Shown in pieces: positions 13,085 to 55,759 of a stretch of 64,000 bases of DNA. The translations under genes and the position numbers were made by a program. Source of the stretch: Sipunculus nudus (lineage: Eukaryota; Annelida; Sipuncula; Golfingiida; Sipunculidae); assembly GCA_026874595.1 (NCBI GenBank), contig CM049306.1:1254019-1318018 (forward strand), read 5' to 3'. The notes beneath the pieces were generated by a model. That model saw only the letters and a list, made by a program, of their open reading frames with translations, ran no database searches and was not told where the DNA came from. Position 1 is the first letter of the stretch; each line of letters starts with the position of its first letter.

Positions 13085-13113
13085 AGCTCAGCTGACTATA
13101 AGTCATCTGAGCT
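13085..13113 (+). repeat. T1 head hairpin, copy A
   Basis: Stem AGCTCAG / CTGAGCT (7 bp), one C-T mismatch, stem TGACT / AGTCA (5 bp), 3-base loop ATA. The same structure with loop GAA opens the element at 17932. Confidence 0.85.
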
Positions 13114-15687
13114 ATAGTCGTGGTCCATTGTCCGTCGTCCGTCCGTCCGTCCGTCCGTCCGTAGATGTGGCACGTTTTGAAACCGTAAGACCTAGGAATC
13201 CAAAATTCAGCATAATGTTAGATGTCCCCAAGATCTCCTACCAAGCCAAAAACTGGGTCTTTGCGACTTCATTCCTTTGAGAAATTAAGGAAAAACCTCA
13301 ATTTTTTATTAAAAACCTATTTTCACACTTTAGGACTGCCTAATATCAAAACCACTCATCTGTTTTTCCTCATATTTCCTATAAATAATCCTCTATATAA
13401 TTCCTATGTACATGCCAGATATTAGGTCTGTATTATTTAATTTAAAAAAGTTATGGGCCCAAACATAATGCATTTTTTAAATAATCAGGAAAGAAATTTT
13501 ATCACTTAACACAAAACTTGTTAAAGCTAAGCACTTTTTTTCCAGTAATATTACTTTTATTAATCAAAATTAAATTGTATACCCAAAATTAGATCAAAAT
13601 CTTTTATATTTTTAAAAATATTAGCAAAAATAAAAAATTGGTACCTTAAATTTTGCCCAACTTTGACCATGGCACTTTTTTTGCTGTAACTGCTGTGGAT
13701 TTAATTTTCACAGCATGTTTTTGTTAGCATTTCAACTGTTAACACCAAAAATTTGAAACCATTTGATCAAAAACTGTAGATTTTATTCAAGTTTTCAATC
13801 TCCATGTCACATATTGCTAGTGTTATGCAGTTTGCTAGAGCTCAGCTCCCGAGCTTCAGCTCTAAGTTCCTTAAATTTGGCATACAGTTAGATTTCTCCA
13901 AAATCCCCTACCATGCCAAGAATTTGGTCACTAGGACTTAATTCCTTCGAGATATCAATGAAAAACTTAATTTTTCCATTAAAAACCCAATGTTACACTT
14001 TAAGACTGCCTAATATCAAAACCACTGATCTGACTTTGATCATATATAATATACATATCTTTCTATACATTCACTATGCACATGCCAGAAATAATGTCAG
14101 TATTGTGTATTTTTTTTAAGTAATGGGCCCAAACATAATGCACTTTGTAAAAAATCAAGAAATATATTTACTCCCTTAACAAGGGCATTGCTGAAGCTAG
14201 AGATCTTTTTTGTCAGGGATGTAACATTATTTAATCAAGATTCAATTGAATACCCAAAATTAGTTCTGAATTTTTCAAATTTTATAAGTTATTAGTATAA
14301 ATATAAAATTAGTACCTTAAATTTTGCCCAACTGTGACCATGGCACGTTTGTTTCCCGTGAGCACTGTTGATATAATTTTCATATCATGCACACATAAGG
14401 ATTTCAGCTTTTTAGTTTAGAAAGCTGAAAGAAATTTGCCAAATATTGTAGCTTTTATTAATGTTTTTTATGAGACCCTGTCAGACTTTGGCTCTCTCCA
14501 GCCCCTCTTGAGTCACCTGTATGTTGACCTTGTTGACCTTTCATCAAATTATGCACGCTTGAGGGGAGAATCCAGGCAGCTGATGGCCAGCCACAGTTGA
14601 TCCAGGTGTTCAACCCAACTCATCTAGTAGTTTTAACCAACAACATAACAATAAACAATAAATTAATAAATTTTTATTGGTTTTTAATAACAAATTAAAG
14701 AAAAATAGAAAAGGAATTTGTTAGTTTATAATAACAGGAAATTAACTTGCAGTTACTGATGATATAAGAATCTTGTATCGATGGGTAGAATGTCACATAT
14801 TCCAAATAACACCATGCAGTCACCTATGGCATTTTTCAGTTCATTTTTAATGATAAAGAAGTAAATCATATTATTCATTACTAATCATTAAGGATTATAT
14901 GAAGGAAATTAATGATAGACAAAGATGCAGTTGATAATATTAATCTAGATTCCTACTGTGTCTAGTGTGTACATTGATGTGAAATTAGTCCAAAATGAAT
15001 TTTTTACAGTTATTTTTAATATAAATAAAAGCCATAAAACCAGGTACTTATGATCATTATTTAAATGTGTGAATTTTGTATATTCTGGATTCTCAACATC
15101 ATTGTTTGGTGAAAACTGAATAAATACCAGACATGGTGCAAATACTTTGTAATTGTATTTAAATACGAATATGATTATGTACTCCATTATAAAATTTCTT
15201 GCATAAAGAATGGGAATTCAGGTAAAAATGAAAGTATATGAATACTCGTGCAAATACTTTCAAAATGTATTCATGAATGCATTCATGAATATATTCTTTA
15301 ATATTATTTTAATAATCATATCAATTATATTTCATTTTAAAAAATCATGATTCTCTTATTATTTTTAATAAAAATTATATTTGGGACAATATTTGTAATT
15401 TTTTTAATAAATAGTTAAATTCTTATATTATATGTTCTGCTTATAAGTTATATGGCCAAGTCAAAATCTGTGTGACAGTAGTACTCCATTTGTTAATAAA
15501 ATAAATGAAATCAATCCTCTTCCCTGTCTCCAAAGGTACTATCAAAATCATACATAAGCTAAACAACAACAACTCATAATACAGCTTATATTTATTACCA
15601 CACAAAACCAGCATGTGCCTCATTTCTAAATAATATTTTTTTATCATATATAACAGCTGAGCGTCGTGACCCATAGGTCCCTTGTTT
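13085..15687 (+). mobile_element. Complete T1 hairpin-headed element, copy A (2.6 kb)
   Basis: The head 13085-13113 folds into a hairpin: AGCTCAG pairs with CTGAGCT and TGACT with AGTCA, loop ATA. A GTCC-repeat follows at 13131-13162. The tail carries CAGCTGAGC (inverted copy of head GCTCAGCTG), GACC-CATA-GGTC, and CCTTGTTT ending at 15687. The copy at 36178-38804 has the same ends and nearly the same interior, which fixes both boundaries. The interior has two diverged units (13180-13850 and 13860-14450), then an AT-rich part. No protein is visible, so it is non-autonomous. It resembles Helentron/DINE-type elements in plan (inference). Confidence 0.75.
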
Positions 15688-15689
15688 AT

Positions 15690-17154: not shown

Positions 17155-17931
17155 CACACACAGGACTTTTCAGTCCGTAAGCTGTTAAAAGGCATGAACT
17201 TTCAGGCTCTTGCACGTTTGAAGGCATGTATTTTTAGTCCGTAAGCATTTAAAGGCAGGACTTTTCAATCTGTAAGCTGTTTAAAAGCAGGAATATCCAG
17301 TCTGTTTGGCATTTGAAGGCAGGACTTTTTAGTTTGTTAGTTGTTTGATGGCAGGACTTATCAGTCTGTTAGGTTTTTGAAGGCTGGACTTTTCAGTTTA
17401 TTGGGCAATCGAAGGCAGGACATTTTAGTCTGTTAGGCATGTGAAGGCTGTTATTTTCAGTCCGTTAGGTGTAAAAAGGCAGAACTTTTTATAACGTTAG
17501 GCATTTGAGCTGGACTTATGTTTGTTAGGCATTTGAAGGCATGACTTTCCAGTCCCTTTGGCATTTGAAGGCAGGAAATTTTAGTTCGTTAGGCGTTTGA
17601 AGGCTGGACTTTTCAGTCTGTGAGGCATCTGAAGGCAGAATGTTTAGTCCATAAGGGGTTTGTAAGCAGGACCTTTCAGCCCATTAGGCATTGGTAGGCA
17701 GGACTTTTCAGGCCATAGGTGTTTGAAGGCAGGATTTTTCAATCTGTATGCTGTTTGAAGCCAGGAATTTCCAGTCTTTTAGGCATTTGAAGGCAGGACT
17801 TTTTAGTTTGTTAGTTTTTTTATGGCAGGACTTGTCAGTCTGTTAGGCATTTGAAGTCAGGAATTTTTAGTTTGTTAGGTGTTTGATGGCAGGGCTTGTA
17901 AGTCTGTTAGGCATTTGAAGGCAGGATTTTT
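17155..17931. repeat. Minisatellite M1, left part (~33 bp unit)
   Basis: Degenerate unit of about 32-34 bp around 'gttaggcatttgaaggcagg' plus 'actttt(c/t)agtc(t/c)'. Some 23 units run to 17931, where the T1 element interrupts. The array resumes with the same unit at 21526. Confidence 0.9.
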
Positions 17932-20900
17932 AGCTCAGCTGACTGAAAGTCATCTGAGCTATAGCGATCACTCTTTGTCCGTCGTCTGTCTGTCCATCTG
18001 TCCGTCCGTTAACCAGGCACAAATCGTAACTGCTGGACCTAGAACCTTGTAACTTGGCATTCTGAGAGGTCCATGAAAAATCTCCTTGGAAACCAGAAAT
18101 TAGGTCTCTGTTACCAATATCCTTCGAGCTATGGGGCCCCAAAGTACCCCCCATAAAAGTAAAAAATTTCATACAAAAACATCAATATCTCATTAACTAC
18201 ATCACTGATGGTCATGATTTTTTGCATACATATTGATCATGAGATGTTCCATCAGTTCCTGCAGACTGGTGGCGCCACCTGTATTTTTCGATTTTTTACG
18301 AATTTTTTTCTCTATTTTTGAGACCTTTAAAAATGTGAACATCTGTTAACAAGGCACAAATTGTAAAGACTGGACCTAGAATCTTCATTCTTGAGACATT
18401 GAGAGGTCAATGAAAAAATGTCCATGGAAACCAGAAATTAGGTCTCTGTTACCCATATCCTTCGAGCTATGGGGCCCTGAAGTACCCCCCAGAATAGTCA
18501 AAAATTTCATACAAAACCTTCAATATCTCATTAACTGCATCACTGATGGTCATGATTTTTTGCATGGATATTGATCATGGAGTGTTTCATCAGTTCTGCA
18601 GACTGGTGGCGCCACCTGTATTTTTCCAATTTTTACGAATTTTTTTCTCTATTTTTGAGACCTCTGAAGATGCAGTCATCTGTTAACAGGGGACAATCGT
18701 AACGAATGGACCTAGAATCTTCTCTCTTGACATGCAGAGAGGCCCATAAAAAGTCTCCTTGGAAACCTGAAATACCCGAAGTACCCCCCAGAATAATGGA
18801 AAATTTGATACAAAAGTTCAAGTAACTGATCAACTATTGCATTGATCACCATGATTCTTTGCATTGATTTTGATCATGGGGTGTTTCATCAGTTTCTGCA
18901 GACTGGTGGTGGCACCTGTATTTTTTCGATTTTTACGTGTTTTTTTCTCTATTTTTGAGACATTAAAAGATGCGGTCATCGGTTAACAGGGCACAAATCC
19001 TAATGACTGGACCTAGAATCGTCTCTCTTGACATGCAGGGAGGCCCATGAAAAGTCTCCTTGGAAACCTGAAACTAGGTCTCTGTTACCCATAACCTCTG
19101 AGCTATGGGGCTCAGAAGTACCTTCCAGAATAATGGAAAATTTGATACAAAAGCTCAAATATCTGAACAACTATTGCATTGATCACCATGATTCTTTGTA
19201 TGGATATTGATCATGGGATGTTTCATCAGTTTCTGCAGTCTGGTGGCGCCACCTGTATTTTTTCGATTTTTACGAATTATTTTCTCTATTTATGAGACCT
19301 TAAGATGGGGTCATCTGTTAACAGGGCACAAATCGTAACGCCTGGACCTAGAATCTTCTCTCTTGACATGCAGGGAGGCCCATTAAAAGTCTCCTTAGAA
19401 ACTTAGAAAAAGGTCTCTGTTACCCATTTTCTTCGAGCTATGGGGCTCCCAAGTACCCCCCAGAATGATGGAAAATTTGATACAAAAGCTCAAGTATCTG
19501 AAAAACTATTGCAATGATCACCATAATTCTTTGCACTGATATTGATCTTGGAATGTTTCATCAGTTTCTGCAGTCTGATGGCGCCACTGGTATTTTTTTC
19601 GATTTTTACGAATATTACAGGGCACAAATCGTAATGCCTAGTTTTTAGCATTATGATTAATACAATGTAGCAGACAAATACACAGTTTTGTTTTAGCCCA
19701 GTTGACTTGGTCATCTGAGCCATAGCAATTGCCCTGTCTTTGTCATCTCTTCAGGTCACAAGTTGTAACCATTAATAGACTTGATGCAACTTAAAATCAA
19801 GGAAATCTGACAGGGAACCCAAATTATGTCACAGTGACCAATATTATGTGAGCTTTGGGGCAAAGACTTTAGTTTGAGCACACCAAAAGACAGACAATTC
19901 TTAGTGTTCAAGGTGGCTGAGCAGATATTTGGATTTAGTTTATAGTATTTAAAAAATGCATCATATACACACAGAAGTGTCAGCAAGCAAAGTATGAACA
20001 GAATTGACCTATTATTCTTTGAGTTGCGGGGCTTTTGACTGCAACATTAATTGATATGTGTGTGCATGCAGACTTTGAATTAGCAAATACCTCAGGAAAA
20101 GCTGCAACTGTCAGGTCTAGCTTAATTTTTTGAGTCATAATGATCTTTTTTACCTCTGGCTACATAAGTCAGAAAATATAAATACATGTACTATCTTTCA
20201 TTACAAGGTAAGTATTCCTTGGAGTTTGTAGAATTAAATGAGTATGAATTAAAATGTATTGTATAAAATGGCAGCTTTAAATTTTGTAAATAGGGGCATT
20301 TGATGATTTCTAGTAACCTCTGGATCTAGAATCTTGTAACTTGACATTCTGAGAGGTCCATGAAAAATCTCTTTGGAAACCAGAAATTAGGTCTCTGTTA
20401 CCCATATCCTTTGAGCTATGGGGCCCCAAAGTACCCCCCCCCAGAATAGTCAAAATTTTTATACAAAAACTTCAATATCTCATTAACTGCATCACTGATG
20501 GTCATGATTTTTGGCATACATATTGATCATGAGATGTTCAATCAGTTCCTGCAGACTGGTGGCGCCACCTGTATTTTTCGATTTATTACAAATTGCTTTC
20601 TCTATTTTTGAGACCTATAAAAATGTGAACATCTGTTAACAGGGCACAAATTATAAAGACTGGACCTAGAATCTTCATTCTTGACAATGGGAGACCCATG
20701 AAAAGTATCCATGGAAACCTGAAATTAGGTCTCTGTTACCCATATCCTTTAAGCTGTATGGCTCCAAAATACCCGCAAGGATAATGAAAAATTTTTATAC
20801 AAAAACTGCAGTATCTCAATAACTACAACACTGATGGTCATGATTTTTGGCATACATATTGATCATGAGGTGTTTCATCAGTTTCTGCAGACTGGGTGCG

Positions 20901-21525
20901 CCACCTCTATTTTATTAAATTTTTTCGAATTTTTTTCTCAATTTTTGAGACCTTTAAGGATGCTGTCATCTGTTAACGTTGCACAAATTGTAACAACTGG
21001 ACCTAGATTCATCATTCTTGTCATGCAAGGAGGCCCATGAAAAGTGTCTGTGGAAACCTGAAATTGGGTCTCTGTTAACCATATCCTTCAGGAATCTTCA
21101 TTTCTCACACAGTGAGAGACCTATGAAAAGTCTCCATGGAAACCTGAAATAAGGTCTCTGTTACCCATATCCTTCAAGCTATAGGACTCCAAAGTATCCC
21201 TCAGAATAATGGACAATTTGATACAAAAGCTGAAGTATCTGAACAACTAATGCAGAGATCACCATGATTCTTTGCATTGATATTGACCATTAAGTGTTTT
21301 TATTAGTTTCTGCGGACTGGTGGAGCCACCTGTATTTTTTTTTAAAGTTTACACATTTTTTCTCAATTTTGGAGATATATAAATACAGACACAATCTCAG
21401 CCTGTTGGTTAATCTGTTTGATGCTTCAGTTGATTGGATATATACTGCCATTCAGATGATAAAATTTCCTTTTGGCGAATCTCTTCTCTGTCAGCTGAGG
21501 GTCATGACCCATGGGTCACTTGTTT
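17932..21525 (+). mobile_element. T1 hairpin-headed element, copy D (3.6 kb), inserted in M1
   Basis: The head hairpin is at 17932-17960 (AGCTCAG...CTGAGCT, loop GAA), followed by 'tgtccgtcgtctgtctgtcc'. The interior consists of tandem units of about 0.30-0.34 kb, each with 'ggacctagaatcttc', 'ttcgagctatgggg' and GGTGGCGCCACCTGTATTTTT (near 18270, 18607, 18905, 19243, 19578, 20559, 20890, 21325). The tail has CAGCTGAGG, GACCCATGGGTC and ACTTGTTT ending at 21525. A partial second head (AGCCCAGTTGACTTGGTCA) near 19694 suggests a smaller insertion inside. No protein coding is seen. The minisatellite on both sides proves that this is an insertion. Confidence 0.8.
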
Positions 21526-24327: not shown

Positions 24328-25297
24328 GTAATTCTGTTTATTTGAATTTATTGTAAATTTAATATTTATTTAAAAAGCAACATTATGGCCATTGTTAGCA
24401 GCATCAGGGGTAAATGTGTACATATTATCTTGTTTGTATTTGGTACAGCTCTTCTTGTACCCCAGATTCTTTTATACACAGTTTATTGAATGATAAGTCT
24501 GTGGTGTAACAAAACACATGGCAGCATCAAATTCATTACAAAATATCATAACAGACTCATGGTTTTCTTCCATTATTCCTTCCAGTCATTCAGCTTCACC
24601 TATGACTACCAGTATGGATAGCCAAAGTATTCAATATATCTAACTTCTCTGACTGCCACTAAAAAAATTATGTGAAAAATATTTTCTCCCTGCACATAAC
24701 GATAGTGTTATTGTCCCCTGCCATACATATACCATAAATACTTCTCACAAAATGGCTAGAAATAACCTGTGCAGTATCCTTAAGTCTGAACTAACCCAGA
24801 ACCATTCTGGAACAGACTGAATATACCATGCAATATATGTTCAGAGTCACCATGACATTGGAATGGCTATGGCTTTGAAATGTAGTGTTACTTTTCTTTT
24901 TTCTTTTTATTTTAAAGATTTTTTGTGGAGATAACCCCGTTTTTAGCTCAGCTGACTGAAAGTCATCGGAGCTATAGGGATCACTCTTTGTCCATTTGTC
25001 TGTCCATTAACAGGGCACATATTATAACTGCTGGACCTAGAAACTTGAAACTGACAACCCATGGAGGGCCATAAAAAATATCCTTGGAAACCTGAAATTA
25101 GGTCACTGTCACCTATATCCTCCGAACCATGGGGCTAGAAAGTACCCCCAAGAATAATTAAAAATTTGATACAAATGCTCCAGTATCTGAATAACTAATG
25201 GATTGATCTTTTTGCATGCATTTTGATCATGGAGTGTTTCATCATTTCCTGAAGACTTGTGGTGCCACCTGTATTTTTTCTTATTTTTATGCTTTTT

Positions 25298-26938
25298 AGC
25301 GAACCTGTGCGCTTATGCGATGGTGCTTTGTCTTCCGTTGTGCATCATCTGTACATTAACCCATATCTCGAAAAAGGCAGGAGCTAGCATCACCAAACTT
25401 TCTGCATAAAAACAGTCATCTAAAAAAGTCTATCGGAATATGTTTATTTTTTGGCTATCTGCATTTACTTTGATTTTATAGGGAAAAAGCTTTAAAACCT
25501 TTAAAAATCTTCTTTTCCAAAACCGTCCAGCCAAATTGTCCAATATTTCACAGAAATAATCGTAGAAATCAATCTCTCCGGTTTGGTGATTTTTGGCCAA
25601 GTTATAGGAAGTTGAACTTAGTCATCTGTCCAAAAGAAGCATACAAAAATTCTAATCTCAGAAATGGCTGGAGCTTTCATCACCAAATTTTATGCCAATG
25701 TTGGTCACATGAGTCATATCTGAACTTGAGGCATTGGTGGCGCAACCTGCATCAGCCTTTTTTGTATGGGAGTCATCAGTGCCTGTATCATACTGAGGGC
25801 AACAAAGAACTTCTTCTCTGAAACCATATGGCCAAATTGTGCAAATAGCACACAGAAATGATCCTAGGGTAGTGCTTTCTGAAGTTTGTTCAAATGGTCT
25901 CTGTTTAGTGACTTTCGGCTGAGTTATGGGAAGCTGAATTTAGTCATATGGCATAATAGCCCATTTAAGCTCAGTAGCTTCAAAGATCTTCTTCTCAAAA
26001 ACAACTGGGCCAAATTCTTAAATCTCACACATTAATTATCCTCATATGTTGATAATTCAAGTTTGTTCGAAGTTACAGGAAGCTGAACTTAGCCAGTTTG
26101 CTGTATCTTCCTATCTGAGTTATAAACCTTTTTCGACTGATGCCACTGAAGCCAATTTGTTTAATATTTTACAAGAATAATCCCAACAATAATTCTTATA
26201 GTAATTGTCTTTGATGGTTCCACATGAATAAATTTTGGCTGAATTATGGAGATTGAATTGAGTCATTTTACCATATATGTTAGCTGTGGGATGCAGTTAC
26301 ATCTAGCCTGGCACTAATTTATTGGCATCTATTACATCATGCCACTAGACATTTAGATTTCAGGTTAAATAGCCTGGCAGACTGCCAACTATTTCTGATT
26401 TGGCAACCAGCCAAAAGTCAGCCTGGATCTATTTATTGTTTTGGCAGACTGGCAACTGTATCAGAAAAGGCAACAGCTCAAGAGTTCACTCAGTGCAGCC
26501 AAGTACAAGTCAAAAGTTCACTCATTCTAGCCAGGTGCAGGTCAAGAGTTCACTCAGTGCAGTAGCTTGAGCCAGCAATTTGTCACAGTTCACTCTTGGC
26601 AACTGCCTTTCTCCCCTAAGCCTGGTCAGCCCAGTGCATCAAACTCAAGAAAAGTTTGATGTATTGGCCTGTTATATTGACCTGTCTGTGCGTCTTTGAT
26701 GGCTTTCTCATTCACAAGACAGGTGTTGCCACCTACAGTGACTTTGCACAGTGTATGTGCTTGCTTATTTCTAAGGAGGATATATCAGTCTGAAATTAGG
26801 CATATGTATACATCTCTGATACCTTTGTCGTATACAAGATATATAGGCCTACTTAAAAATTAATGGCCCAGCATTGAAGCATTATACCTGGTGTATAAAC
26901 CATTGCACAGGTTCGCATTAGGCCTGTAGGCCTTGTTT
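25298..26938 (+). mobile_element. T2 hairpin-headed element, copy 1 (1.64 kb), nested in T1
   Basis: The head AGCGAACCTGTGCGC (25298-25312) has its inverted partner GCACAGGTTCGC at 26905-26916, giving a 12 bp perfect inverted match. A palindrome, GGCC-TGTA-GGCC, and TTGTTT follow, ending at 26938. The interior carries units with 'aaaacc..(c/g)ccaaattgt', 'atttcacagaaataatc' and 'ggccaa(g)ttataggaagttgaac'. The T1 sequence resumes on the other side at 26939, proving nesting. No coding capacity is visible. Confidence 0.75.
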
Positions 26939-27588
26939 CTCTATTTTTGAGACTTTCAGATGAAGCAGTCCGTCTGTTGACAAGGCACAAATCATAACCA
27001 TTAGACCTAGAAACTTCTAACTAAACATCCAGGGAGTTCCTGGGCAAATCTCCTTGGAAACCTGAAATTAGGTTATGGTATTTTTCCAACTACAGACTGA
27101 AAACATGATTTTGAGTGCCCAGTAAGTCAGATGGGGCACAAATTGTTTCAGCCAGGCCTAGAATCTTCTAATATGACATTCAGGCAGGTCTTGGGTAAAT
27201 ATGCATGGAAACCTGAAATTAGGTCATGGAGACCTAATTCTGTGAGCTAAGGGCCACAAGCATGATTTTGAGCACCCTGAAATCAGATGGGGACAGATTG
27301 TATCTGCTAGCCCTAGAATGTTCCATTGTGATATACATGGAAGTCTTGGGCAGTCTCCATGGAAACCTAAAATTAGGTCATGGTGACCTATATTTTGCAT
27401 GCTACCAGCCATAACCTCTTAGGCAATATCCATGGAAACCTGAAATAGGGTCATGGTGACCTATATTACTGGCTAAAAGCATTTTAAGCACCCAGACAGT
27501 TGACAGGGTACAAAACTTTACTGTTGAACCTAGAATATTCTGTCTTGACATCCAGTGATGTCCTTCAGAAATATGCATGTTCATTTTT

Positions 27589-27807
27589 AGCTCAGCTGAC
27601 TGCATACAAAAAGGCTAGATTTCATGGAAATGGCTGGACATATTATCATGAAACTTTTACTTTTTGTTTTTTTTTTATTAAGAACTTTAATTGCTACAGT
27701 TTTTAAATTGGGATACCTGCTACAAAATTTGGCATTCAGATGATAAAATTCATTTTGTGAATGTCTTCCTAGTCAGCTGAGCATTATGACCCATGGGTCA
27801 CTTGTTT
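27589..27807 (+). mobile_element. Short (0.22 kb) T1-like copy or second head
   Basis: Starts AGCTCAGCTGACTGCATAC and ends with the T1 tail at 27807. It lacks the second arm of the head hairpin and most of the interior. It is either an internally deleted copy inserted in copy C or a rearrangement of copy C itself. Confidence 0.5.
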
Positions 27808-28881
27808 TAATGTTTGTTTATCTAAGGACTGTGTACACCTGCAGAATTTCATTCCAGTTTCAGACTATGTGATGGGCTTACACACAATAATCCTGGTGGC
27901 AACCAGGTCATAACCCTAAAAGGCACACTCTTTTATGAGTGAAACACAACTGTTGACCACAGTTTCCCCATTAAGCCTGCAGAGCACTCACCCTGTGTGG
28001 GGCTGATCGTGAAATATCTCACCGTCTCGGCTGAACTCACAATTTAAAGGCATTGAGCCAAGTGCTCTTCCTTGGACCACAGAAGCTAGTTGTGATTGTT
28101 TTTCTTCCAGACAAAGTATGAAACTGTCCAATGAACAAAAAAATGTACCCAGTCATCCCAGGTCTTGAAGCTTCTGATCTTGTCTGAGGGTATGGGCATC
28201 TTGAACTTTCTCTGATAATTCAGAATATGGCTGTTATATTCTTAAAATATTTAGATGAATATGATTTCCTCATTTCAGATTATCAATGATAAACATGGGA
28301 ATCACAGTGTCATGTCTATAGATATGATTGTTCACATGTAAATAAACTGGGATTATTTACCTTTTATATAAGTGTAGATGCCAGCATGTATATACCAAGA
28401 ATATTGACATTTATGACAGAAAATTAATGTTTTTTACAATCAAAGTCATATAATACATAAAATATGTCCTGTTGGAATTAATACTAGCATTATAAGTGTA
28501 TGGCATTTGTGTGTGTATTTTACAAGATCATGCATATTCATGTATCAGTGACTACATGCTCTTTAATTGCCATCTTTGTCTGATCATTCTGTCAAAGAAC
28601 TCAGCAATCTAGTTCACTGAAGCCATTACAGATATTCTGATATTGCAGAAAAAAAACCTCCCAGCTGAATATAATTGTACCAGAAAATATGTAGTGATAA
28701 CTTTCTCCTGAGTCAGTCATCAAATTTTGTTTTACTGCCTCGATATTCTTTACAAATCTAGTAAGAAAATAAACATGTACAATCTTCAGACTGCTTAAAA
28801 TCAAATTATACTTATACAAAAAAATAGCACTAAATGAAGGTATAAAGTTAACATGTATAAAAATGTACTGTTTTGTTGCAG

Positions 28882-28986
28882 ATGGATATTGAAGTAGACT
28901 TAGGACAGACAACAAAAAAAGACCAAATTGGATTCAGCCTTATCAGCAAGGATGTCATTGTAGATGGAGTTAATAGTAACATGAAG
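28882..28986 (+). CDS. Exon 2 of unidentified acidic protein
   Basis: 35 codons between acceptor TTTTGTTGCAG and donor AAG|GTATAT, phase 0 at both ends. The translation begins MDIEVDLGQTTKKDQIGFSL and continues with ISKDVIVDGVNSNMK. It has no low-complexity bias, unlike everything around it. Joined to exon 1 it gives a peptide with two adjacent Met residues (MAAEVDM-MDIEVDL), so translation could also start here. A 39-44 bp minisatellite begins only about 30 bp past the donor. I do not recognise a domain. The assignment rests on splice sites, phase and codon-like composition. Confidence 0.65.
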
Positions 28987-31225: not shown

Positions 31226-31497
31226 TTGACATTTTTTACCTTAATGGTTGCTAGGCCAAAAGAAAGGTATGGTTCTCAGGCTCACGTCAGTTTCAACCCC
31301 CCGCATCAAAAATTTTTATTTTTGTTTTCAAGAAGATAAAATAATACAGTTTTCATAAGATTTCTTATGTTTTGTAGTGCTTCTACCTGTTAAGCAAAAA
31401 AATTATGACATTTCTATCAACATACAAAAAAAATAAAAAAAAAAATTGGCTGCCCTCACTTATTTCTAAAAAAAAATCTGAGAACCATAACTTTTTA

Positions 31498-33562
31498 AGT
31501 GAACCTATGAGCTTATGCAATGGTGTGGCATTGTCAATCCAGCATCCACTGTTCGGAATCCACCATACGTTAACCAATGCTATCTCAAAAACTGTTAGAG
31601 CTAGCAGTGTCAAATTTTGTGGAAGAATCAGTCGCATGTCAAACTTTATAGGATTGAACTTGTTTTTTTGCTATCTGCATGTACTTAAATTTTATATGGA
31701 AAAAGCTTAAAATACTTTAAAAATCTTCTCCAAATTTGTCTAGCCAAATTGTTAAATATTTCACATAAATAATTCCTGAAACTATCTCTCTCAAGTTTCT
31801 TCAATGGTTCAAGTTTGGTGAATTCTGGCCAAGTTACAGGAAGCTGAACTTAGTCATTTGGCCAAGAAAGGATACTAAAATTACAGTGTCAGAAACAGCT
31901 GAAGTTATCTTCACCAAATTTTATGCAAATGTTGGTCATATGAATCATATATGAATTTGAGGTATTGGTGGCACCACCTGCATCTACCTTTTCTGTACAA
32001 TGGTCAACAGTCATCAGTGCATTAACCTATTATATCTCAGGAGTAGCAGGAGCTAGCATCCCCAAATTTTATGCGAAAATCTGGCACATATCAAATGTTG
32101 TGGGTTTGAGTATTTTGTGGCGGCACCTGCATTAACTTTTCATTTTATGGGGGAAAAGCTAAAAATCCTTTAAAATCTTCTTCTCTAAAATCATTTATGC
32201 AAATTGTTCAATATTTCACAGAAATAATCCCAGAGATAAGCTCTCTCAGGTTTGTTCAAATGGTTTGAGTTTAACGAATTTTGGCCAGGTTACAGGAATT
32301 TGAACTTGGTCATTTGCCCAAGTAACTACAGAAGCTAGCATCACCAAGTTTTGTGCAAATGTTGGTCACATGACTCGTATTTGAAATTGCAGTTTTTGTG
32401 GTGCCATCTACGTCGACCTGTTTTTACTGACAAAAACCTCATAATTTTAGCCTCTTTCAGTTTAAAATTGTTTTATGGTGAAACTTTCAAGCTTAATCGT
32501 TTAATTTTTTACAAGTATTATCCCAGGTTAGGATTCTTTCAGTTGTAGAAGAATACATTTAGTTTGTGATTTATGGCAGAGCTTTAACAATGAAAGGACT
32601 ACATCTTTTATTATTCTAATCTTTTGATAAACAAAATCTTATGGATATGCCAGCTTGAAAAAAAAGCATTGTAGCCAAAGTCTTGAAGTATGTGTGAACA
32701 GATTGACCTACAGGCAAAGATTGAGTCTGTATCTATAAGTAGCTTGGCAGACTGCAAACAATTTCAGATAAATGCAACTGGCCAAAGGACAGTCTGCATC
32801 TGTTTATAGCTTTGGCAGACTGCCAACTGTATCAGATTATGCAACAAGTCAAGAGTTCACACAGTGCAGCCAGGTACATGTCAACAATTCACTCTATGCA
32901 GCCAGATGCAGGTCAAGAGTTCACTTAGTGCAGTGGCTGTAGCTAGCAATTTATTCCTGTTCACTCTGGGCAAATGCCTTTCACACTTAAGCCTGGTTAG
33001 GCTGGTGCACCTGACTCAAGAGAAGTTTGATGTATTGGCCTGATATTTTGACCTGTCCATGCATCTTTGATGGCTTTCTCTTTCACAAGACTGGTGTCAC
33101 CACCTACAATGACTTTTGCACAATGTATGTGCCTGCTTATTTCTCAGGAGGGATTTGATAAATCAGCCTGACTTTGTGCATATTTATACATATTGGAAAG
33201 CTTTATCATATACAAGACTGGTTGCACGATTTACAATAATTGCTGCACAGTGTATGTCCCTGCTTATTTCTCAGGAGGGGTTTGATATATCAGCCTGAAA
33301 TTGGGCATATATATATCTCAGGTAGCTTTGTCATATACAAGACTGGTGGGGCCACCTACAGTCATTTTTATGTTGTGTGCACCCATGGAAGTATTTCAGC
33401 AGTGATCTTTGTGTAATTGGTTCTTGTTCAAAATGTTTAGTACTTGTACTAGTAATTGTTTATGTACATGTTACACATGTAAAGTAATGGTCCAGCATTG
33501 AAGCATTATACCTGGTGTATATACCATTGCACAGGTTCGCATTTGTCCTGTAGGCCTTGTTT
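31498..33562 (+). mobile_element. T2 hairpin-headed element, copy 2 (2.07 kb)
   Basis: The head AGTGAACCTATGAGCTTATG at 31498 corresponds to AGCGAACCTGTGCGC of copy 1. The tail has GCACAGGTTCGC at about 33529-33540, then a palindrome-like CCTGTAGG and CCTTGTTT ending at 33562. The interior has units of about 0.3 kb with 'gctagcatcaccaa', 'ggtcacatga' and 'ggtggcaccacctgcat'. It then has the block (from about 32990) also seen at 1-440 and 26620-26938. It ends only 70 bp before exon 3. Confidence 0.75.
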
Positions 33563-34290: not shown

Positions 34291-34740
34291 TTTTACTATA
34301 AAATGACAGCAATCATGGTTCTCAGCTGTGATTCCATCTAGTGTCTGGAGTGTTTATTAATCACCAGTGGAAGCCCTATAGTAATCACCGTGTCTGTCTG
34401 TCTACAGGTCGTACAATCCATCCAAACAAATTTGTTTCTAGATTATGACAAAAATAAGTTTATGGGTGATAATTCTGCTTTGGCTAGACAGATTGGCTTC
34501 AAACTTGATTCAGTAATGACCGACCACCTAAGTAAGAAACATTTTGATTTTCAGGGTCCAGAGGTCAAGGTGAAGGTCACAGGAGCCACACCTTTAAAAT
34601 GGTTGTGGATGCACTGTAAATCAAACTTTTCATCCCAAACTTTTCATCTTTCACACATGGCTTACTTGCCCAAAGTGGAAGAAATCTGTAGATCCTGAGG
34701 TTACCTAGACATTGGTAAAGGTCACTGGACCCCACTTTTT
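34291..34740. other. Intronic spacer with unrecognised open frame
   Basis: An open frame at 34390-34698 includes a 'ccagaggtcaaggtgaaggtcacagg' block. Similar 'ggtcaaggtcacagg' phrases occur in repeats at 49213 and 49530, so I read this as repeat debris, not an exon. Confidence 0.45.
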
Positions 34741-36177
34741 AGTTCACTCTGTGAACTTATGCCATGGCGCAGCGTCCACTGTCAAATGTCCACTGTCCAC
34801 CGTTTGTTACCAAATATCTCAACAGCCACAGCAGCTGCCTTCATGAAACTTTGCAGAATTACTGATCATAGAATGAATATGAAAAAATAAGCTTTTGGTG
34901 GCGCCACCATTTTGACCTAGTTTCTGCAGGCCAAAATGGTCTTTTTCATTTCTTCCAAGAAAAGTCTTAAAGTATAAATATTATGGCCTTCATATCATAG
35001 GCAAAAGATCCTTAGAGGAATGGGAAAATTTGAGAATAAATTCAGTCAAGTCATTTTCAAAATGGCATCTCTACAGAACTTAAATTGTGTCGATCGCAAA
35101 ATTTGGCAACTTGAAGTGTTTCCATACATGATGTATTGTCTGTTACCAAATATCTTAGTAACTGCTGCAGCCTTCAGTTTCAAATTTCACAGGAATATTG
35201 ATCATGTGACTGCTAAATGATTTTGACCTCCAGGTGGCGCCACCTGTGTTGACCTTCTTTCTGCTGGTTGTACTGGTCTTTTCTGCATTTTCCAAGATAA
35301 GTCATAAAGTATTAATATTGTGGCCTTCATATCATAGGCAAAAATTCCTTAGAGGAAGTGGAATAATTTGAGTATAAATTTAGTCAAGTCATTTTCAAAA
35401 TGGCGTCTCTACGGAACTTTAAATTGTGTCAATCACAAAATTTGGCAACTTGATGTGTTTCCATACATGATGTATTGTCTGTTACCAAATATCTTAGGAA
35501 CTGCTGCAGCCTTCAGTTTCAAATTTCACAGGAATATTGATCATGTGACTGTTAAATGATTTTGACCTCCAGGTGGCGCCACCTGTGTTGACCTACTTTC
35601 TGCTGGTTGAAATGGTCTTTTCGGCTTTTTCCAAGATAAGTCATAAAGTATTAATATTGTGGCCTTCATATCATAGGCAAAAAGTTTCTTAGAGGAAGTG
35701 GAATAATTTGAGTATAAATTCAGTCAAGTCATTTTCAAGATGGCGTCTCTACAGAACTTCAAATTGTGTAGATCGCAAAATTTGGCAACTTGATGTGATA
35801 CCATACATGATGTATTGTCTATTACCAAATTTCTTAGGAACTGCTGCAGCCTTCAGTTTAATAATTTCATATGAATATTGATCATGTGACTGCTAAATGA
35901 TATTGACCTGCAGGTGGTGCCACCTGTATTGAGCTACATTTGCTGTGGGTGAAAATTGCTTGTATCTCAGGAGCATTGGTCTGAAATTGGCATGTGCATC
36001 CATCTTGGAAAGTTTCTGTAAAACCAGACAGGTCGCGCCACCTAACTTGTGCAATAGAACACTGTCCACTTGGAAAGGAATTAATGTTTTTTTACATTCA
36101 CTTTTTTTCTTTTTTAATCACCTACCAGCATGCACAGTAATTCACAGAGTGAACATTTGACCCCTGGGTCTCTCGTT
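34741..36177 (+). mobile_element. T3 hairpin-headed element (1.44 kb)
   Basis: The head contains GTTCAC-TCT-GTGAAC (34742-34756), a 6 bp-stem hairpin. The inverted copy TTCACAGAGTGAAC lies at 36141-36154, a perfect 14 bp match. The tail palindrome GACCC-CT-GGGTC and TCTCGTT end the element at 36177. The interior has three units of about 340 bp, each with 'atatcttaggaactgctgcag' and 'aggtggcgccacctgtgttgac' (near 35233, 35573, 35915). It is followed with no gap by the head of T1 copy B. No coding content is visible. Confidence 0.8.
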
Positions 36178-38804
36178 AGCTCAGCTGACTATAAGTCATC
36201 TGAGCTATAGTCGTGGTCCATTGTCCGTCGTCCGTCCGTCTGACGGTCCGTCCGTCCATCCGTAGATGTGGCACGTTTTGAAACCGTAAGACCTAGGAAT
36301 CCAAAATTCGGCATAATGTTAGATGTCCCCAAGATCTCCTACCAAGCCGAAAACTGGGTCTTTGCAACTTCGTTCCTTTGAGAAATTAAGGAAAAACCTC
36401 AATTTTATATTAAAAACCTATTTACACTTCAGGACTGCCTAATATCAAAACCACTCATCTGTTTTTCCTCATATTTACCATAAATATTCTCTATATAGTT
36501 CCTATGTACATGCCAGAAATTATGTCTGTATTATTTAATTTAAAAAAGTTATGGGCCCAAACATAATGCATTTTGTAAAAAATCAGGAAAGATATTTGAT
36601 CACTTAACACAAAAAATGTTAAAGCTATGGACCTTTTTTCCAGTAATATAACTTTAATTAATCAAAATTAAATTGTATACCCAAAATTAGATGAAAATCT
36701 TTTAAATTTTTTAAAATATTAATAAAAATAAAAAATTGGTACCTTAAATTTTGCCCAACTTTGACCATGGCACGTTTTTTTCCTGTAAGTACTGTGGATT
36801 TAATTTTCACAGCATGTTTTTGTTAGCATTTCAACTGTTAACACCAAAAATTTGAAACCAGTTGATCAAAAACTGTAGATTTTAATCAAGTTTTCAAGCA
36901 CCATGTAACATATTGTTTACATCAAGCTAGTATTATGCGGTTTGCAAGAGCTCAGCTCCCCAGCTTCAGCTCTAAGTTCCTTAAATTTGGCATACAGTTA
37001 GATGTCTCCAAAATCCCCTACCATGCCAAGAATTTGGACACTAGGACTTAATACCTTCGAGATATTAATGAAAAACTTCATTTTTCAATTAAAAACCCAT
37101 TGTTACACTTCAAGACTGCCTAATATCAAAACCACTGATCTGACTTTAATCATTAATAATATACATATTTTTCATTCTCTATGCACATGCCAGAATGATG
37201 TCAGTATTGCTTAATTGTTTTAAGTTATGGGCCCAAACATAATGCACTTTGTAAAAAATCAAGAAATATATTTACTCCCTTAACAAGGGCATTGCTGAAA
37301 CTAGAGATTTTTTTGTCAGGGATGTAACATTATTTAATCAAGATTCAATTGAATACCCAAAATTAGTTCTGAATTTTTCAAATTTTATAAGTTATTAGTA
37401 TAAATATAAAATTAGTACCTTAAATTTTGCCCAACTGTGACCATGGCACGTTTGTTTCCCTTGAGCACTGTTGATATAATTTTCATATCATGCACACATA
37501 AGGATTTCAGCTTTTTAGTTTAGAAAGCTGAAAGAAATTGGCCAAAAATTGTAGCTTTTATTAATGTTTTTTATGAGACCCTGTCAGACTTTGGCTCTCT
37601 CCAGCCCCTCTTGAGTCACCTGTATGTTGACCTTGTTGACCTTTCATCAAATTATGCACGCTTGAGGCGAGGCATACAGGAATCCAGGCAGCTTATGGCC
37701 AGCCACAGTTGATCCAGGTGTCCAACCCAACTCATCTAGTAGTTTTAACCAACAACATAACAATAAACAATAAATAAATAAATTTTTATTGGTTTTTAAT
37801 AACAAATTAAAGAAAAATAGAAAAGGAATTTGTTAGTTTATAATAACAGGAAAATTAACTTGCAGTTACTGATGATATAAGAATCTTGTATTGATGGGTA
37901 GATTGTCACATATTCCAAATAACACCATGCATTCACCTATGGCATTTTTCAGTTCAATTTAAATGATAAAGAAGTAAATCATATTATTCATTACTAATCA
38001 TTAGGGATCATATGAAGGAAATTAATGATAGACAAAGAAGCAGTTGATAATATTAATCTAGATTCCTACTGTGTCTAGTGTGTACATTGATGTGAAATTA
38101 GTCCAAAATGAATTTTTTACAGTTATTTTTTAATATAAATAAAAGCCATAAAACCAGGTACTTATGATCATTATTTAAATGTGTTAATTTTGTATATTCT
38201 GGATTCTCAACATCATTGTTTGGTGAAAACTGAATAAATACCAGACATGGTGCGAATACTTTGTAATTGTATTTAAATACAAATATGATTATATACTCCA
38301 TTATAAAATTTCTTGCATAAAGAATGGGAATTCAGGTAAAAATGAAAGTATATGAATACTCGTGCAAATACTTTCAAAATGTATTCATGAGTGCATTCAT
38401 GAATATATTCTTTAATATTATTTTAATAATCATATCAGTTATATTTCATTTTAAAAAATCATATGATTCTCTAATTATTTTTAATAAAAATTATATTTGG
38501 GACAATATTTGTAATTTTTTTTAATAAATAGTTAAACTCTTATATTATATGTTCTGCTTATAAGTTATATGGCCAAGTCAAAATCTGTGTGACAATAGTA
38601 CTCCATTTGTTAATAAAATAAATGAAATCAATCCTCTTCCCTGTCTCCAAAGGTACTATAAAAATCATACATAAGCTAAACAACAACAACTCATTATACA
38701 GCTTATATAAATTACCACACAAAACCAGCATGTGCCTCATTTCTAAATAATATTTTTTTATCATATATAACAGCTGAGCGTCGTGACCCATAGGTCCCTT
38801 GTTT
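36178..38804 (+). mobile_element. Complete T1 hairpin-headed element, copy B (2.63 kb)
   Basis: Matches copy A (13085-15687) over its whole length with small indels, about 95% by eye. The head hairpin (loop ATA), the GTCC tract (with an inserted TGACG), the AT-rich 3' half and the CAGCTGAGCGTCGTGACC tail are all conserved. The end of CTTGTTT is at 38804. Its first base abuts the last base of T3. High identity to copy A, which lies about 23 kb away outside this gene, implies fairly recent activity or gene conversion. Confidence 0.8.
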
Positions 38805-38975: not shown

Positions 38976-39465
38976 ATATGCCTGTCATATGACAGGAGTA
39001 TTATGGTATATTCACCATCTGTCAGTCCATCTGTCTGTCCATTAACTTTTAGGCTTGCCATGATAACTTACCGGCACTTCTATAGATTTTCACAAAACTC
39101 ACCATAACTACTTACCAAAAGATTATCTCACCCGAGTTTTGTTATGGGCAAAATCCATGCATTTAAATAAGGTCACGAGTCACTAGGCTACTTTGTGGGT
39201 TTGCCCCGTTAACTTACAAAGAATATGAAGGATTTGGATAAAACTTATTAGAAATGTTAATCAAAAAAATATCTCACCTAAGTTTGATTTCCAGCAAAAT
39301 CCATGCATATTTAATGAGGTCAGAGGTCACCACACTTTGGAAGCACCTTGTTGACTTACCAAAAATCCTATGGATTTTCATGAAACTCATTATACATATT
39401 TAATGAGGTCAGAGGTCACCAGATACACAACGGGCATATTATGCATGTTTGTGGTGCTCTTGTTT
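38976..39465 (+). mobile_element. Fourth-type (T4) hairpin-headed element (0.49 kb)
   Basis: The head ATATGCCTGTCATATGACAGG contains the palindrome CCTGTCATATGACAGG. It is followed by 'ccatctgtctgtccattaac'. The tail has GGGCATAT, an inverted match to ATATGCC of the head, and ends GCTCTTGTTT at 39465. Internal units of roughly 130 bp carry 'caaaatccatgcat' and 'gaggtcagaggtcacca'. It starts exactly where the preceding T1 tail ends. Confidence 0.65.
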
Positions 39466-40246: not shown

Positions 40247-40321
40247 GAAAAAGAACTGGTACCACTACAAGAGGCAGATGACTTTGAGTTTGATATTCCA
40301 CTCCCAAGTAAAGTACAGCAG
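40247..40321 (+). CDS. Exon 4 of unidentified acidic protein (DDFEFDIPLPS motif)
   Basis: 25 codons between acceptor TTTTTGTTACTAAG and a strong donor CAG|GTATGT, phase 0 at both ends. The translation is EKELVPLQEADDFEFDIPLP then SKVQQ. The acidic-aromatic core DDFEFDIPLPS resembles GEFDFDLPSS of the next exon, so the two exons may be an internal duplication carrying a short linear motif (inference). It is surrounded by a mobile-element pile-up upstream and a 26 bp minisatellite starting about 270 bp downstream. Confidence 0.65.
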
Positions 40322-40589
40322 GTATGTAACTCAACCAGATGAAACTCAGGAATGAACTGTTTAAATTAGTGTACACTTTACAACCATCATGTAATCTCTG
40401 GAAAATTTTCTTTGCACCATTTATCTAACAACCAACTGTTAATGGGAAAACAAAAAAAATCGTTTGCCTTTTTGCTTTTGTCTATGCAATAAAAACATTG
40501 CCACAGTTTATTCAATGCATCAGCTCCAATACATGCATGTTAAATCACTGTTTATCAAGTCATTTAACAGAATAAAAATGATGTGTTAT

Positions 40590-49014: not shown

Positions 49015-49936
49015 GCTAACCAAAGCGAAGTTCAGAAGAGCTTATACCGTACCTCCGTTGTCGGCGTCACCATTGTCTATAGACACCCCAAGTTTAAGTC
49101 TTTTTTTGTCTGTAACTCAGCAACCACTGACTCAATTGCTTTCATATTACACATATGTATTGTATTGGTGGTTATCAATCCCCCGATGATATGAGGATCA
49201 TAAGGCAAAAGGTCAAGATCACAGGCCCCGTTGTTCATGAACAAGTCAGGTTAAAGTTTGTTGTTGTTCTCATTTCTCCATTGCTAATGAAGACATTTAG
49301 TTACACTTGATACACTGATGTACAGTGACAATACCTAGCACAGCTATTAAAAGTTTTTATCATATTTTTATTTTAAGGCCAGTAATTAGACAAAATTTGT
49401 ACAGATCCCAACCCAGCTCAGGTTAAAATTTTTATTTACTCTTTATAACTGGGCAACCACTTGCCCTATTGCTTTTATATTTCACATATGTATTGCATAG
49501 GGGATTTGGAATCCCCATATGATTTAGGGAGCAAAAGGTCAAGGTCACAGGCCCCAGTTGTCCATAAACAAGTCCTGTTAAAGTTTTTTTGTTAGGCTCA
49601 TTGTACCATTTGCTGATAAAAATATTTCAATTAAACTTAGTCGACTGATGTAGAGTGACAATACCCAGCACACCTATTAAAACTTTCCCCATATTTTAAT
49701 TTCTGGACAAGTAATAAGCACTTCCCGAACAAACTTTGTACAGACCCAAACCTAGCTCAGGTTAGTGTTTAGGGATAACACTTTATAATTCAACAACCAC
49801 TCACCATATAGCTTTCATATTTCTTATATGTATTGTATAGGAGGTTAGGAATCCCACATATTATTTGGGGGTTTAAGATCAATGATTTTCTGAACCCCGT
49901 ACTGGCAAGCTATGTTGGCCTCAGATGACTTGTTTA
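49015..49936 (+). repeat. Repeat element with ~0.3 kb units, different sequence
   Basis: Begins TTTTTAGCTAACCAAAGCGA and ends CTCAGATGACTTGTTT. Three units contain 'aaggtcaaggtcacaggcccc', 'catatttcacatatgtattg' and 'aacaagtc(a/c)(g/t)gttaaagttt'. The plan (AG start, units, CTTGTTT end) is like T1-T4, but I find no clear hairpin head. Confidence 0.5.
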
Positions 49937-53168: not shown

Positions 53169-53170
53169 TG

Positions 53171-55759
53171 GCGAACCTGTGAGCTTATGTGATGGCGCAG
53201 TGTCGTCCGTCCACCGTCCGCCTTCAAGGGCTGGCTTTCCACTGTCAATGGCTGTAAGTCCATAACTGTAACCATGGCTGTAACTGTCAGAGCTAGCAAC
53301 TCCAAATTACATGTAAGGATTAGTCCCATGTGAAACTTAGAGCCCTGGAGATTATTATTGGGTATCTGCATTAATTTAGATTTTATAGAGAAAAAGCTTA
53401 AAAACCTTTTAAAATCTTCTTCTCTGAAACTCCAGCCAAATTGTCCAGTATTTCACAGAAATATTCTTTGGAACAATCTCTCTCAAGTTTGTTCAAATTG
53501 TTTCAGTTTGATGATTCTTGACCTAGTTTCAGGAAGTTGAACTTAGTCATCTATGCAAAAAAGCATACTAAAATTAAAATCTCAGAAACAGCTGGAGCTG
53601 TCATCACCTAATTTTATGCCAATGTTTGTCACATGAGTCATATCTGAAATTGAGGTGTTGGTTGCGCCACCTACATTTATCTGTTTTTTTAAAGCAAAAA
53701 TTTAAGTTTAGACTCTTCTAGCTTATAGCTTTTTTTTAAGAAACTGTTAAGCTGATTGGTTTTAACTTTACAAGAATTATTCTGCCAGTTTTATAAGAAT
53801 AGATTTGGTAAATGCAGCTTTAAAAAAGCAGTGTAGCCAATTGAAAAGGCTTTCTGTGTTTGAAAACAGATTTGACAACATGCCCAGTTTCAGCAGCCAT
53901 GTCAAGAGATCACTCAGTACAACCAGGTGGGGTCCAGATATCACCATGGCAACTGACCTGGCTCTGTCTGGTGTCTAGACAATGTGTCTAGACGTCTAGA
54001 CCAGCGTCTCGACATCTAGACACATCGTCTAGAGACAGAATGCCCAGATAAGAATTATCTGAAAGAAAGACTATATCTTTCAGCTGTTTGAAAAAACTTG
54101 GTTTGCATTTTTAGTGAATCTCTGAGCATATGCAATGGTGTGGCGTCGTCGGTCTTCCGTCATCTGTCGTGTGTCATAGCTATATCAAAAAGGGCAGGAG
54201 CTAGCATCACCAAAGTTTTTACAAAAAATTTGTCATCTAAAAAATTCTTTCAGATTGTGCTTATTTCTTAGCTAACTGCATTTTGTTAGATTTTATAGGG
54301 AGGAAGCTAAAAAACATTAAATAAAAATGTTCTTCTCCGAAATCATGCTGCCAAATTGTCCATTCATCTGTTCCAATAATCTTCCCTGGTAAAAAGAACA
54401 CATCCTAAATATCCTGACTGATACATCCGTTTGTCCAATCAGGCTAAGAATGTAGCCCTTGGATAGCTTTATAACATACACTAAAAATGGTGGTGCCACC
54501 TGCAACCATTTTTGCACAGTGTCCATCTGTTCATCTGCCTTGGGATAAAATCACTCATATCTCGGCAGTGGTTGGACTTATCCACCTGAAATTTTGCAGG
54601 TTTATACATCCTAGACAGCTTTCTTGATTTTATGACAGGTGGCACCACCTTCATTCACGTTATGCTGCAGACATCCAAGCTCATATTTTGTTAAAAGTTT
54701 GACTGATTTGGCCAGAATTTTGCATGTGTATAGATCTCACAAAGCTCTTTATCGTATGCAAAACTGGTGGCACCACCTGCAACCATTTTTGCACAGCATC
54801 CATCTGTTCATCTGCCTTGGGATAAAATCACTCATATCTCGGCAGTGGTTTGACTTATCAACCTGAAATTTTGCAGGTTTATACATCCTAGACAGCTTTC
54901 TTGATTTTATGACAGATGGCGCCACCTTCATTCATGTTTATGCTGCAGACATCCAAGCTCATATCTCGGGAACGGTTTGACCAATTGGGCTAAAATTTTA
55001 CATGTGTATAGATCGAACATGGCTCTTTATCATACACAAACTGGTGGCGCCACCTGCAACCAGTTTTGCACAGCATCCATCTGTTCATCTGCCTTGGGAT
55101 AAAATCACTCATATCTCGGCAGTGGTTGGACTTTGTCCACCTGAAATTTTGCAGATTTATACATCCTAGACAGCTTTCTTGATTATAGACAGGTGGCACC
55201 ACCTTCATTCATGTTTATGCTGCAGACATTCAGGCTTATGTATAGATCTTACATCGCTCCTGATCATATACAAAATCAATGGCCCACCTGCCACCATTTT
55301 TGCACATGTCTTCTGTTTGTCTGCTGTGGGATAAAATCACTCATATCTCGGCAGTGGTTTGACTTATCAACCTGAAATTTTGCAGGTTTATACATCCTAG
55401 ACAGCTTTCTTGATTTTATGACAGATGGCGCCACCTTCATTCATGTTTATGCTGCAGACATCCATGCTTATATGCAACACACCTCACTCTGTTTACCCTT
55501 GCCACTCAATCCATGCCTCACTTCACCCGTCCCATTCTGATTTCGGCAGATACATGTAGTCATTTGTCGACTATCCATATTCTAGTTTTAAAATGTCCCA
55601 TTGTGAAACTTGCAGGTCTGAAACACCCATTTTGTTGAGATCATAATACTTGGGTAGATATGCAGGACATAAGAGGATCAATATTAAATTAAAAAAAAAA
55701 TTCCTCCATTCATACTACCAAATTTTGCACAGGTTTGCATTAGTCCTGTAGGCCTTGTA
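53171..55759 (+). mobile_element. T2 hairpin-headed element, copy 3 (2.6 kb), inserted in M8
   Basis: The head GCGAACCTGTGAGCTTATGT is followed by 'gtcgtccgtccaccgtccg'. The tail GCACAGGTTTGCATTAGTCC is followed by TGTAGGCCTTGTA at 55759. A second head-like AGTGAATCTCTGAGCATATG at 54113 suggests two copies fused or nested. The last kilobase has 277 bp units ('tttgcacag...catctgttcatctgcc', 'cactcatatctcggcagtgg', 'gacaggtggc(a/g)ccacc') at about 54511, 54787 and 55064, the same as 11550-12450. Both flanks are M8. Confidence 0.7.
53975..54032. repeat. 22 bp inverted repeat built of TCTAGA motifs
   Basis: Arms 53975-53996 and 54011-54032 match at 20 of 22 positions, loop 14 bases. The region has five GTCTAGA-type palindromes in 60 bp, inside T2 copy 3. 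Confidence 0.85.

Follow-up and report, generated by a model that had tools for sequence, protein, structure and literature searches.

A stretch of 64,000 nucleotides of the Sipunculus nudus genome (C1:1254019-1318018, referred to below as the window) was found to contain nine repeat elements of four families, T1 to T4, together with exons of a host gene. We report on the identity of these families, on the Helentron proteins that may mobilize them, and on the orientation of the elements relative to genes. The analysis is based on sequence motifs, alignments, profile matches, and strand counts, with genome-wide searches covering the 1.43 Gb assembly. The host gene and all nine elements share the + strand (Table 1). 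The nine start coordinates proposed in a preliminary description of the window were all correct, and the majority of its motif readings were confirmed.

Table 1. Repeat elements and host-gene exons, with positions in the window.
Feature	Position	Strand	Parts and remarks
T1a	13080..15687	+	T-run and head AGCTCAGCTGAC..GTCATCTGAGCT, GTCC tract, AT-rich body, tail CAGCTGAGCGTCGTGACCCATAGGTCCCTTGTTT
T1b	17927..21525	+	~0.335-kb GGTGGCGCCACCT units; tail GTCAGCTGAGGGTCATGACCCATGGGTCACTTGTTT
T1c	24940..27807	+	split by T2a; second T1 head (TTTTTAGCTCAGCTGACT) at 27584
T2a	25293..26938	+	inside T-run of T1c; head TTTTTAGCGAACCTGTGCGC, tail GCACAGGTTCGCATTAGGCCTGTAGGCCTTGTTT
T2b	31492..33562	+	subterminal repeat and 3' palindrome decayed
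T2c	53171..55759	+	head without preceding TTTTT; second T2-type head at 54108; 277-bp central repeats
T3	34736..36177	+	head TTTTTAGTTCACTCTGTGAAC, 339-bp units, tail TTCACAGAGTGAACATTTGACCCCTGGGTCTCTCGTT
T1a2	36178..38804	+	second T1a-type element; adjoins the end of T3
T4	38976..39465	+	head ATATGCCTGTCATATGACAGG, tail ACGGGCATATTATGC..CTCTTGTTT; a stray T1-type tail ends just before, at 38975
Host-gene exon	28881..28986	+	open frame, AG and GT borders, read from sequence
Host-gene exon	40252..40322	+	open frame, AG and GT borders, read from sequence

Terminal architecture of the elements

The preliminary description had attributed one terminal architecture to four unrelated families. The architecture was recovered in T1, T2, and T3, which have inverted repeats in subterminal position, a hairpin in the head (weak in T2), a palindrome on the 3' side, and an end of the CTTGTT type, and it was weakly recovered in T4. 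Inverted repeats were assessed as the longest exact match between the first 45 and the last 65 bases of each element. This match spanned 9 bp in T1a and T1a2, 10 bp in T1b, 12 bp in T1c and T2a, and 14 bp in T3. It was 8 bp in T2c (11 bp with one mismatch) and 7 bp in T4 (10 bp with one mismatch). The best inverted match of T2b was a different 9-mer, indicating that its own subterminal repeat has decayed. For comparison, 3,000 random pairs were drawn from the first 43.5 kb of the window: matches of at least 9 bp were observed in 1.6% of the pairs, of at least 10 bp in 0.4%, and of at least 11 bp in none, while 17% reached 7 bp. The inverted repeats of T1, T2a, and T3 are beyond chance. In Helentrons and HINEs, such repeats typically span about 11-15 bp.

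The head hairpins comprised a 7-bp stem in T3, an 8-bp palindrome in T4, and an imperfect 12-bp stem in T1; as previously described, the structure was weak in T2. Tail palindromes, claimed for the families in general, were found in T1b and T1c (7-bp arms), T2a (6-bp arms), and T3 (GACCC-CT-GGGTC); those of T1a, T1a2, T2b, and T2c were decayed, and that of T4 was limited to 5 bp, a length common by chance (31% of the controls). Lone hairpins of at least 7 bp were found in 5-6% of the controls. The signal is the combination of the parts, not a single hairpin. Internal units of about 0.3 kb, also part of the proposed plan, were present in T1b, T2c, and T3 (232-339 bp), and none were found in T1a or T4.

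The families cannot be considered as unrelated. TTTTTAG starts 12 of the 16 distinct readable T1, T2, and T3 heads (T3 being represented by one copy), and T1, T2, and T4 have internal sequence in common with Helentron loci.

Genome-wide copies and Rep/Helicase partners

The T1 tail GACCCATGGGTCNCTTGTTT was found at 9,950 places in the genome and the T2 tail at 6,099 places with at most one mismatch. With at most two mismatches, 332 and 118 places were obtained for the T3 and T4 tails, respectively. The reversed patterns used as controls gave no match for any of the four tails. When 100 listed copies of each of T1 and T2 were compared, the bases located 3' of CTTGTTT differed from copy to copy. 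At the other end, 16 distinct heads, not including that of T2c, were matched. Exactly five Ts, in otherwise differing contexts, precede 12 of these heads (eight T1, three T2, and one T3), the remaining four corresponding to one T6, one TT (T1a2 abutting T3), and two TTTTTA variants. The nested element T2a occupies a T-run of a T1 unit that is uninterrupted in the units of T1b, and no non-T duplication is present at this site. The ends of canonical Helitrons (5'-TC, CTRR-3', insertion at AT) were not encountered, the ends being TTTTTAG and CTTGTTT.

The Pfam profile Helitron_like_N gave 143 Rep-like matches in the genome, and part of these loci were examined. An autonomous Rep/Helicase partner with matched ends was identified for T1, and a candidate partner was identified for T2 at one locus. 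The likeness to Helentron-associated elements (HINE/DINE) that had been proposed from the window is thereby borne out. The C17 frame L010, of at least 2,332 residues and truncated by the edge of the locus, matches Helitron_like_N, PIF1, and, weakly at its C-terminus, an endonuclease; the endonuclease match is above the cut-off in the related frames L011 and L007. A T1 tail is located 1.0 kb past the L010 frame, and two T1 heads, a GTCC tract, and T1b-type units are located upstream (L035), for an estimated overall length of 14-15 kb. T1b is 76-88% similar to the autonomous element in L035 in the longest alignments. The same arrangement, with a T1 tail ~1.0 kb past the end of the same Rep-Hel frame, was found at four loci on four chromosomes (L010 on C17, L014 on C5, L015 on C10, and L023 on C9), with one palindrome mismatch in the tail of L015. 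In the C5 copy, a T1 head (L036), a GTCC tract, and T1b-type units are present opposite the T1 tail (L014).

The end of the T1-partner protein was available at 12 loci, comprising L010, L011, and ten of 17 downstream pieces. In L017, a T1-type tail is located 1.1 kb past the protein end, together with the variant tail TGGCCCATGGGCCA, which is also present in L018 (one mismatch), L026, L027, and L030. L016 and L028 contain T1-type tails and no protein end within the piece. In a second autonomous group, the tail palindrome is altered on both sides, from GACCC..GGGTC to GGCCC..GGGCC, and is intact in four of five loci.

The T2 candidate is located on C11 (L038, L075, L022, and L037), where a Rep-Hel protein lies between a T2 5' body and a T2 core and tail. 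T2b is 75% similar to the 5' region of this locus over 900 bp. The C11 protein is 53% identical to the T1 partner over 574 residues, and a third lineage (L007) is ~31% identical. The central repeats of T2c are 83.6% similar to the 5' part of an autonomous T1-type element (L032) over 798 bp, and pieces of the T4 body (49-218 bp) are 81-88% similar to the 5' side of another Rep-like locus, L034. T3 is linked to the Helentron network by architecture and weak core similarity only. Since T1 ends and core are present in one Rep-Hel lineage and a T2 body, core, and tail at the locus of another, and since T2c and T4 are similar to Helentron loci, the families make up a network of Helentron modules whose ends match those of particular lineages.

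T1 to T4 are very probably non-autonomous Helentron derivatives (HINEs), which would be mobilized in trans by a lineage with matching ends. In the mechanism that we propose, the Rep/Helicase/endonuclease of the matching lineage would act on each family in trans, and a rolling-circle nuclease would nick the element at both ends. The head hairpin, the subterminal repeats, and the palindrome preceding CTTGTT would serve as recognition or termination signals, and a copy in single-stranded form would enter a T-rich site, the target not being duplicated.

Several observations weigh against this identification. The loci examined, a part of the 143 Rep-like matches, did not include a partner with T3 or T4 ends, and the 7-bp inverted repeat of T4 is by itself within chance. 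The endonuclease match of L010 (E value of 4.4e-4) is under the Pfam cut-off. Three of the 12 loci with a protein end (L011, L024, and L025) showed no recognized tail in the DNA examined, and this in spite of 90% identity between the L011 and L010 proteins over 2,013 residues. The T2 candidate is a single locus, in which the Rep match falls within an open frame of only 630 residues, a T1a element is nested, and the 5' edge begins with an inverted T2 tail. Finally, the flanking Ts may be attributed to the element or to the target alike, so that a duplication consisting of Ts only is compatible with the data, a difficulty in assigning terminal Ts that was also met in work on other Helentrons (PMC4067079).

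Two other identities were considered. The preliminary description favored a single machinery reading structure over sequence and moving all four families through their hairpins. The parts do occur in the same order across families, and the compensated palindrome change between the autonomous groups indicates that pairing was kept; this mechanism is nevertheless very unlikely because T1 and T2 pair with two distinct Rep-Hel lineages and because the short terminal sequences TTTTTAG and CTTGTT are themselves common to the families. The elements are also non-coding and have inverted repeats near their ends, as expected for derivatives of DDE transposons resembling miniature inverted-repeat transposable elements. 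This assignment is scarcely tenable since the repeats are subterminal, the two ends are unlike each other (TTTTTAG and CTTGTTT), the matching partner is a Rep-Hel protein, and non-T duplication is absent at nested T2a, the one site examined.

Additional features were noted at the partner loci and in the window. The Helentron proteins of L010, L011, and L007 also match DUF6570 and, near the N-terminus, Herpes_teg_N (L010 and L011) or OTU (L007). Two T1 heads per element are present in the autonomous C17 copy (L035 positions 2135 and 2859, oriented) and likewise in T1c (window positions 24945 and 27589), which may be composite. A further T1-tailed block occupies positions 9597-10726 of the window on the + strand, with its tail at 10707 and a body common to loci L066, L067, and L073 beside T1a. 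Positions 49009-49935 contain an additional HINE-like unit, which starts with TTTTTAGCTAACC, comprises 340-bp units, and ends with CAGATGACTTGTTT. A 26-bp satellite (~212 copies) extends from 40581 to 46099, and a 29-bp satellite precedes T2c (51290-52328), its reverse complement forming an 8 kb array after T2c (55823-63977).

Orientation of the elements relative to genes

The copies of T1 and T2 form strand domains across C1:0-8 Mb. The first 100 listed T1 tails of C1 were arranged in 21 strand runs, as compared to 42.2 ± 4.1 in 20,000 shuffles (lowest value of 27). Adjacent listed tails separated by at most 50 kb were on the same strand in 52 of 59 cases for T1 and 18 of 20 cases for T2. Where a T1 was located within 50 kb of a listed T2 copy, the closest one had the same orientation in 20 of 21 cases. 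For T2 pairs, the agreement was 12/20 (0.60) at 100-200 kb and 36/73 (0.49) at 200-500 kb. The run count of the T2 list was near random (43 versus 48.1) because the spacing is wide. Listed T1 pairs 0.2-2 Mb apart agreed at a frequency of 0.69-0.72, as compared to 0.59 expected from the 71:29 strand split of the list; this long-range agreement is due in part to that split.

Gene strands were deduced from SH3 and PDZ exons (20 loci) and from 16 intron pieces located between exons of the same strand. Three of the SH3/PDZ loci (L056-L058) were excluded as bacterial-looking, and element matches were present in five of the 17 loci that were kept (L041, L044, L045, L050, and L054, the first two of which overlap). 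Matches were present in ten of the 16 intron pieces and absent from six; one of the ten (L059) contained T4 only. Three further intron pieces (L076-L078) had no element match. L045 and L064 belong to one gene, as do L050 and L060, leading to 11 distinct genes. T1/T2-type or partner-derived sequence was in gene sense in all 11 genes with matches, and in 12 of 12 if the window gene is included (two-sided binomial test, 0.0005). Two antisense alignments, both secondary matches, were present among the 36 of the C6 gene. The copies of T1a in or beside genes display 75-89% similarity. The orientation biases known for transposons in introns are mild or antisense.

A rule of gene-sense orientation is countered by other observations. 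T4 in L059 is antisense to the gene, and a T3 copy at C2:29709848 is antisense between two + PDZ exons. A looser test compared listed positions only, namely 77 of the 100 listed T1, 100 T2, and 100 T3 copies with 314 exons, the latter copied by hand from lists of 72, 108, 103, and 152 matches with omission of small contigs and of many repeated exons of the same gene. Agreement in this test was 4/6 within 30 kb, 7/9 within 60 kb, and 13/17 within 100 kb. The misses were a T2 copy (C1:38130461, 25 kb from the exon), one T1 copy (89 kb), and two T3 copies (25 and 94 kb). Exon and element could be parts of different genes when they are that far apart.

As a control, we used an unrelated terminal-inverted-repeat transposon present in the window (31263-31490, ends ATGGTTCTCAG..CTGAGAACCAT), which has 1,509 matches genome-wide, 100 of them listed. 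With a distance limit of 100 kb, the listed copies had the orientation of the closest listed element in three of 12 cases and that of the closest exon in one of six. The control transposon does not follow the gene-sense rule, although it may have an opposite bias, numbers being small. No abundant non-Helentron repeat that could provide a further control turned up in the comparison of the loci. Other probes were abandoned: a tRNA B-box pattern (eight matches) led nowhere, and both a fifth-family head, GGGGACATTGATTTGGGTCTGTC, derived from the similarity between L049 and L061 (39 matches), and T4 (118 places) were too sparse, the latter for orientation coherence.

Three simple causes of the orientation were rejected. 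T-runs are not sufficiently asymmetric, since the sense-to-antisense ratio in element-masked introns was 1.27 for runs of at least four Ts and 0.94 for runs of at least five. Poly(A) and splice signals do not account for the bias, as no such feature of the window elements favors the sense over the antisense orientation. Nesting in the T-run of another element explains local agreement and cannot align elements with genes.

The leading, although unproven, reading of the orientation is that elements of the Helentron family, as single-stranded DNA, insert into the coding (non-template) strand of genes undergoing transcription, the probable sites being T-runs that transcription has exposed in single-stranded form. 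We hold this reading tentatively, at somewhat less than even confidence. Alternatively, insertion would be undirected and antisense copies purged by selection, a possibility that we regard as rather unlikely. Intronic insertions are generally recognized to be subject to selection, and the control transposon leans in the opposite direction (nine of 12 copies, as judged from the closest element up to 100 kb away), which could reveal general filtering of asymmetric repeats in introns. Selection would, however, have to be strong to produce a bias of 12/12, and the signals in the window elements speak against it: poly(A) signals are alike on the two strands (43 sense versus 46 antisense), the motif AATAAA is more frequent in the sense direction (25 versus 17), and splice-like sites are few (eight sense versus six antisense). 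Orientation might also follow the direction of replication forks, agreement with genes resulting from the co-orientation of both. The long one-strand runs (35 of 36 listed C1 T1 tails at 0.06-1.17 Mb share their strand) and the excess of T1 pair agreement at 0.2-2 Mb are in keeping with this explanation, which is made improbable by the decrease in T2 agreement with distance and by the agreement of T1/T2-type sequence with the strand of each of 12 individual genes. Insertion into the coding strand fits the scheme proposed for Helraiser, in which a single-stranded target is cleaved, a scheme that does not test strand choice (PMC4778049).

The gene loci provided two side observations. Sequence similar to these elements accounts for 30.5% of the DNA (padded mask) of the 16 intron pieces (L059-L074). 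The small contigs C61-C90 contain long PDZ frames with identical scores and are probably bacterial contaminants or symbionts.

Comparison with known Helentrons

The plan of Cg_HINE from Crassostrea gigas (PMC7492417) is near part-for-part the same as that of the elements described here. Cg_HINE comprises an 11-12 bp subterminal inverted repeat, a left-flank inverted repeat complementary to it, a GTCC-type microsatellite, tandem central repeats, a 3' subterminal inverted repeat, and a palindrome, and it inserts at TT without duplication; 11 elements are described, several with differing flanks (PMC7492417). The likeness concerns the architecture. According to the same account, none of ten autonomous Repbase Helentrons could be related to the oyster elements, and these were integrated in both orientations, whereas T1 has a partner here, T2 has a provisional one, and both families follow gene sense in the genes sampled. 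The bivalve Pearl elements, compared by description, have short core arrays and were later classed as non-autonomous Helentrons (passage in PMC7492417).

Helentrons and HINE/DINE-1 elements of mite, mosquito, and fly, also compared by description (passages in PMC4067079), resemble the present elements by their subterminal inverted repeats, 3' palindrome, and variable terminal Ts, and by Rep/Helicase partners with the same ends; their T-rich target and the endonuclease of their partners have probable counterparts here. These passages contain no gene-orientation rule. Canonical Helitrons of the Helraiser type (PMC4778049) are similar in having a Rep-Hel protein, a 3' hairpin, and a proposed single-stranded intermediate, and differ by their 5'-TC and CTRR-3' ends and AT target. 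A survey in rice reports that no family has a strong orientation bias (PMC7145194), and no report of a gene-sense rule for Helentrons was found in the portions of the open-access literature searched.

The architecture is already known as the HINE plan; the T1 and provisional T2 partners and the gene-sense orientation in the sampled genes are the points in which the present elements differ from those of the oyster. The pairing of T1, and provisionally of T2, with Rep-Hel proteins provides, in this genome, an answer to the question left by the oyster HINEs. If an abundant rolling-circle family obeyed a sense rule almost without exception, this would directly inform on the target, namely single-stranded DNA of the coding strand. 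Should insertion indeed be strand-directed, thousands of gene-aligned copies would amount to a fossil record of the direction of transcription in the germline.

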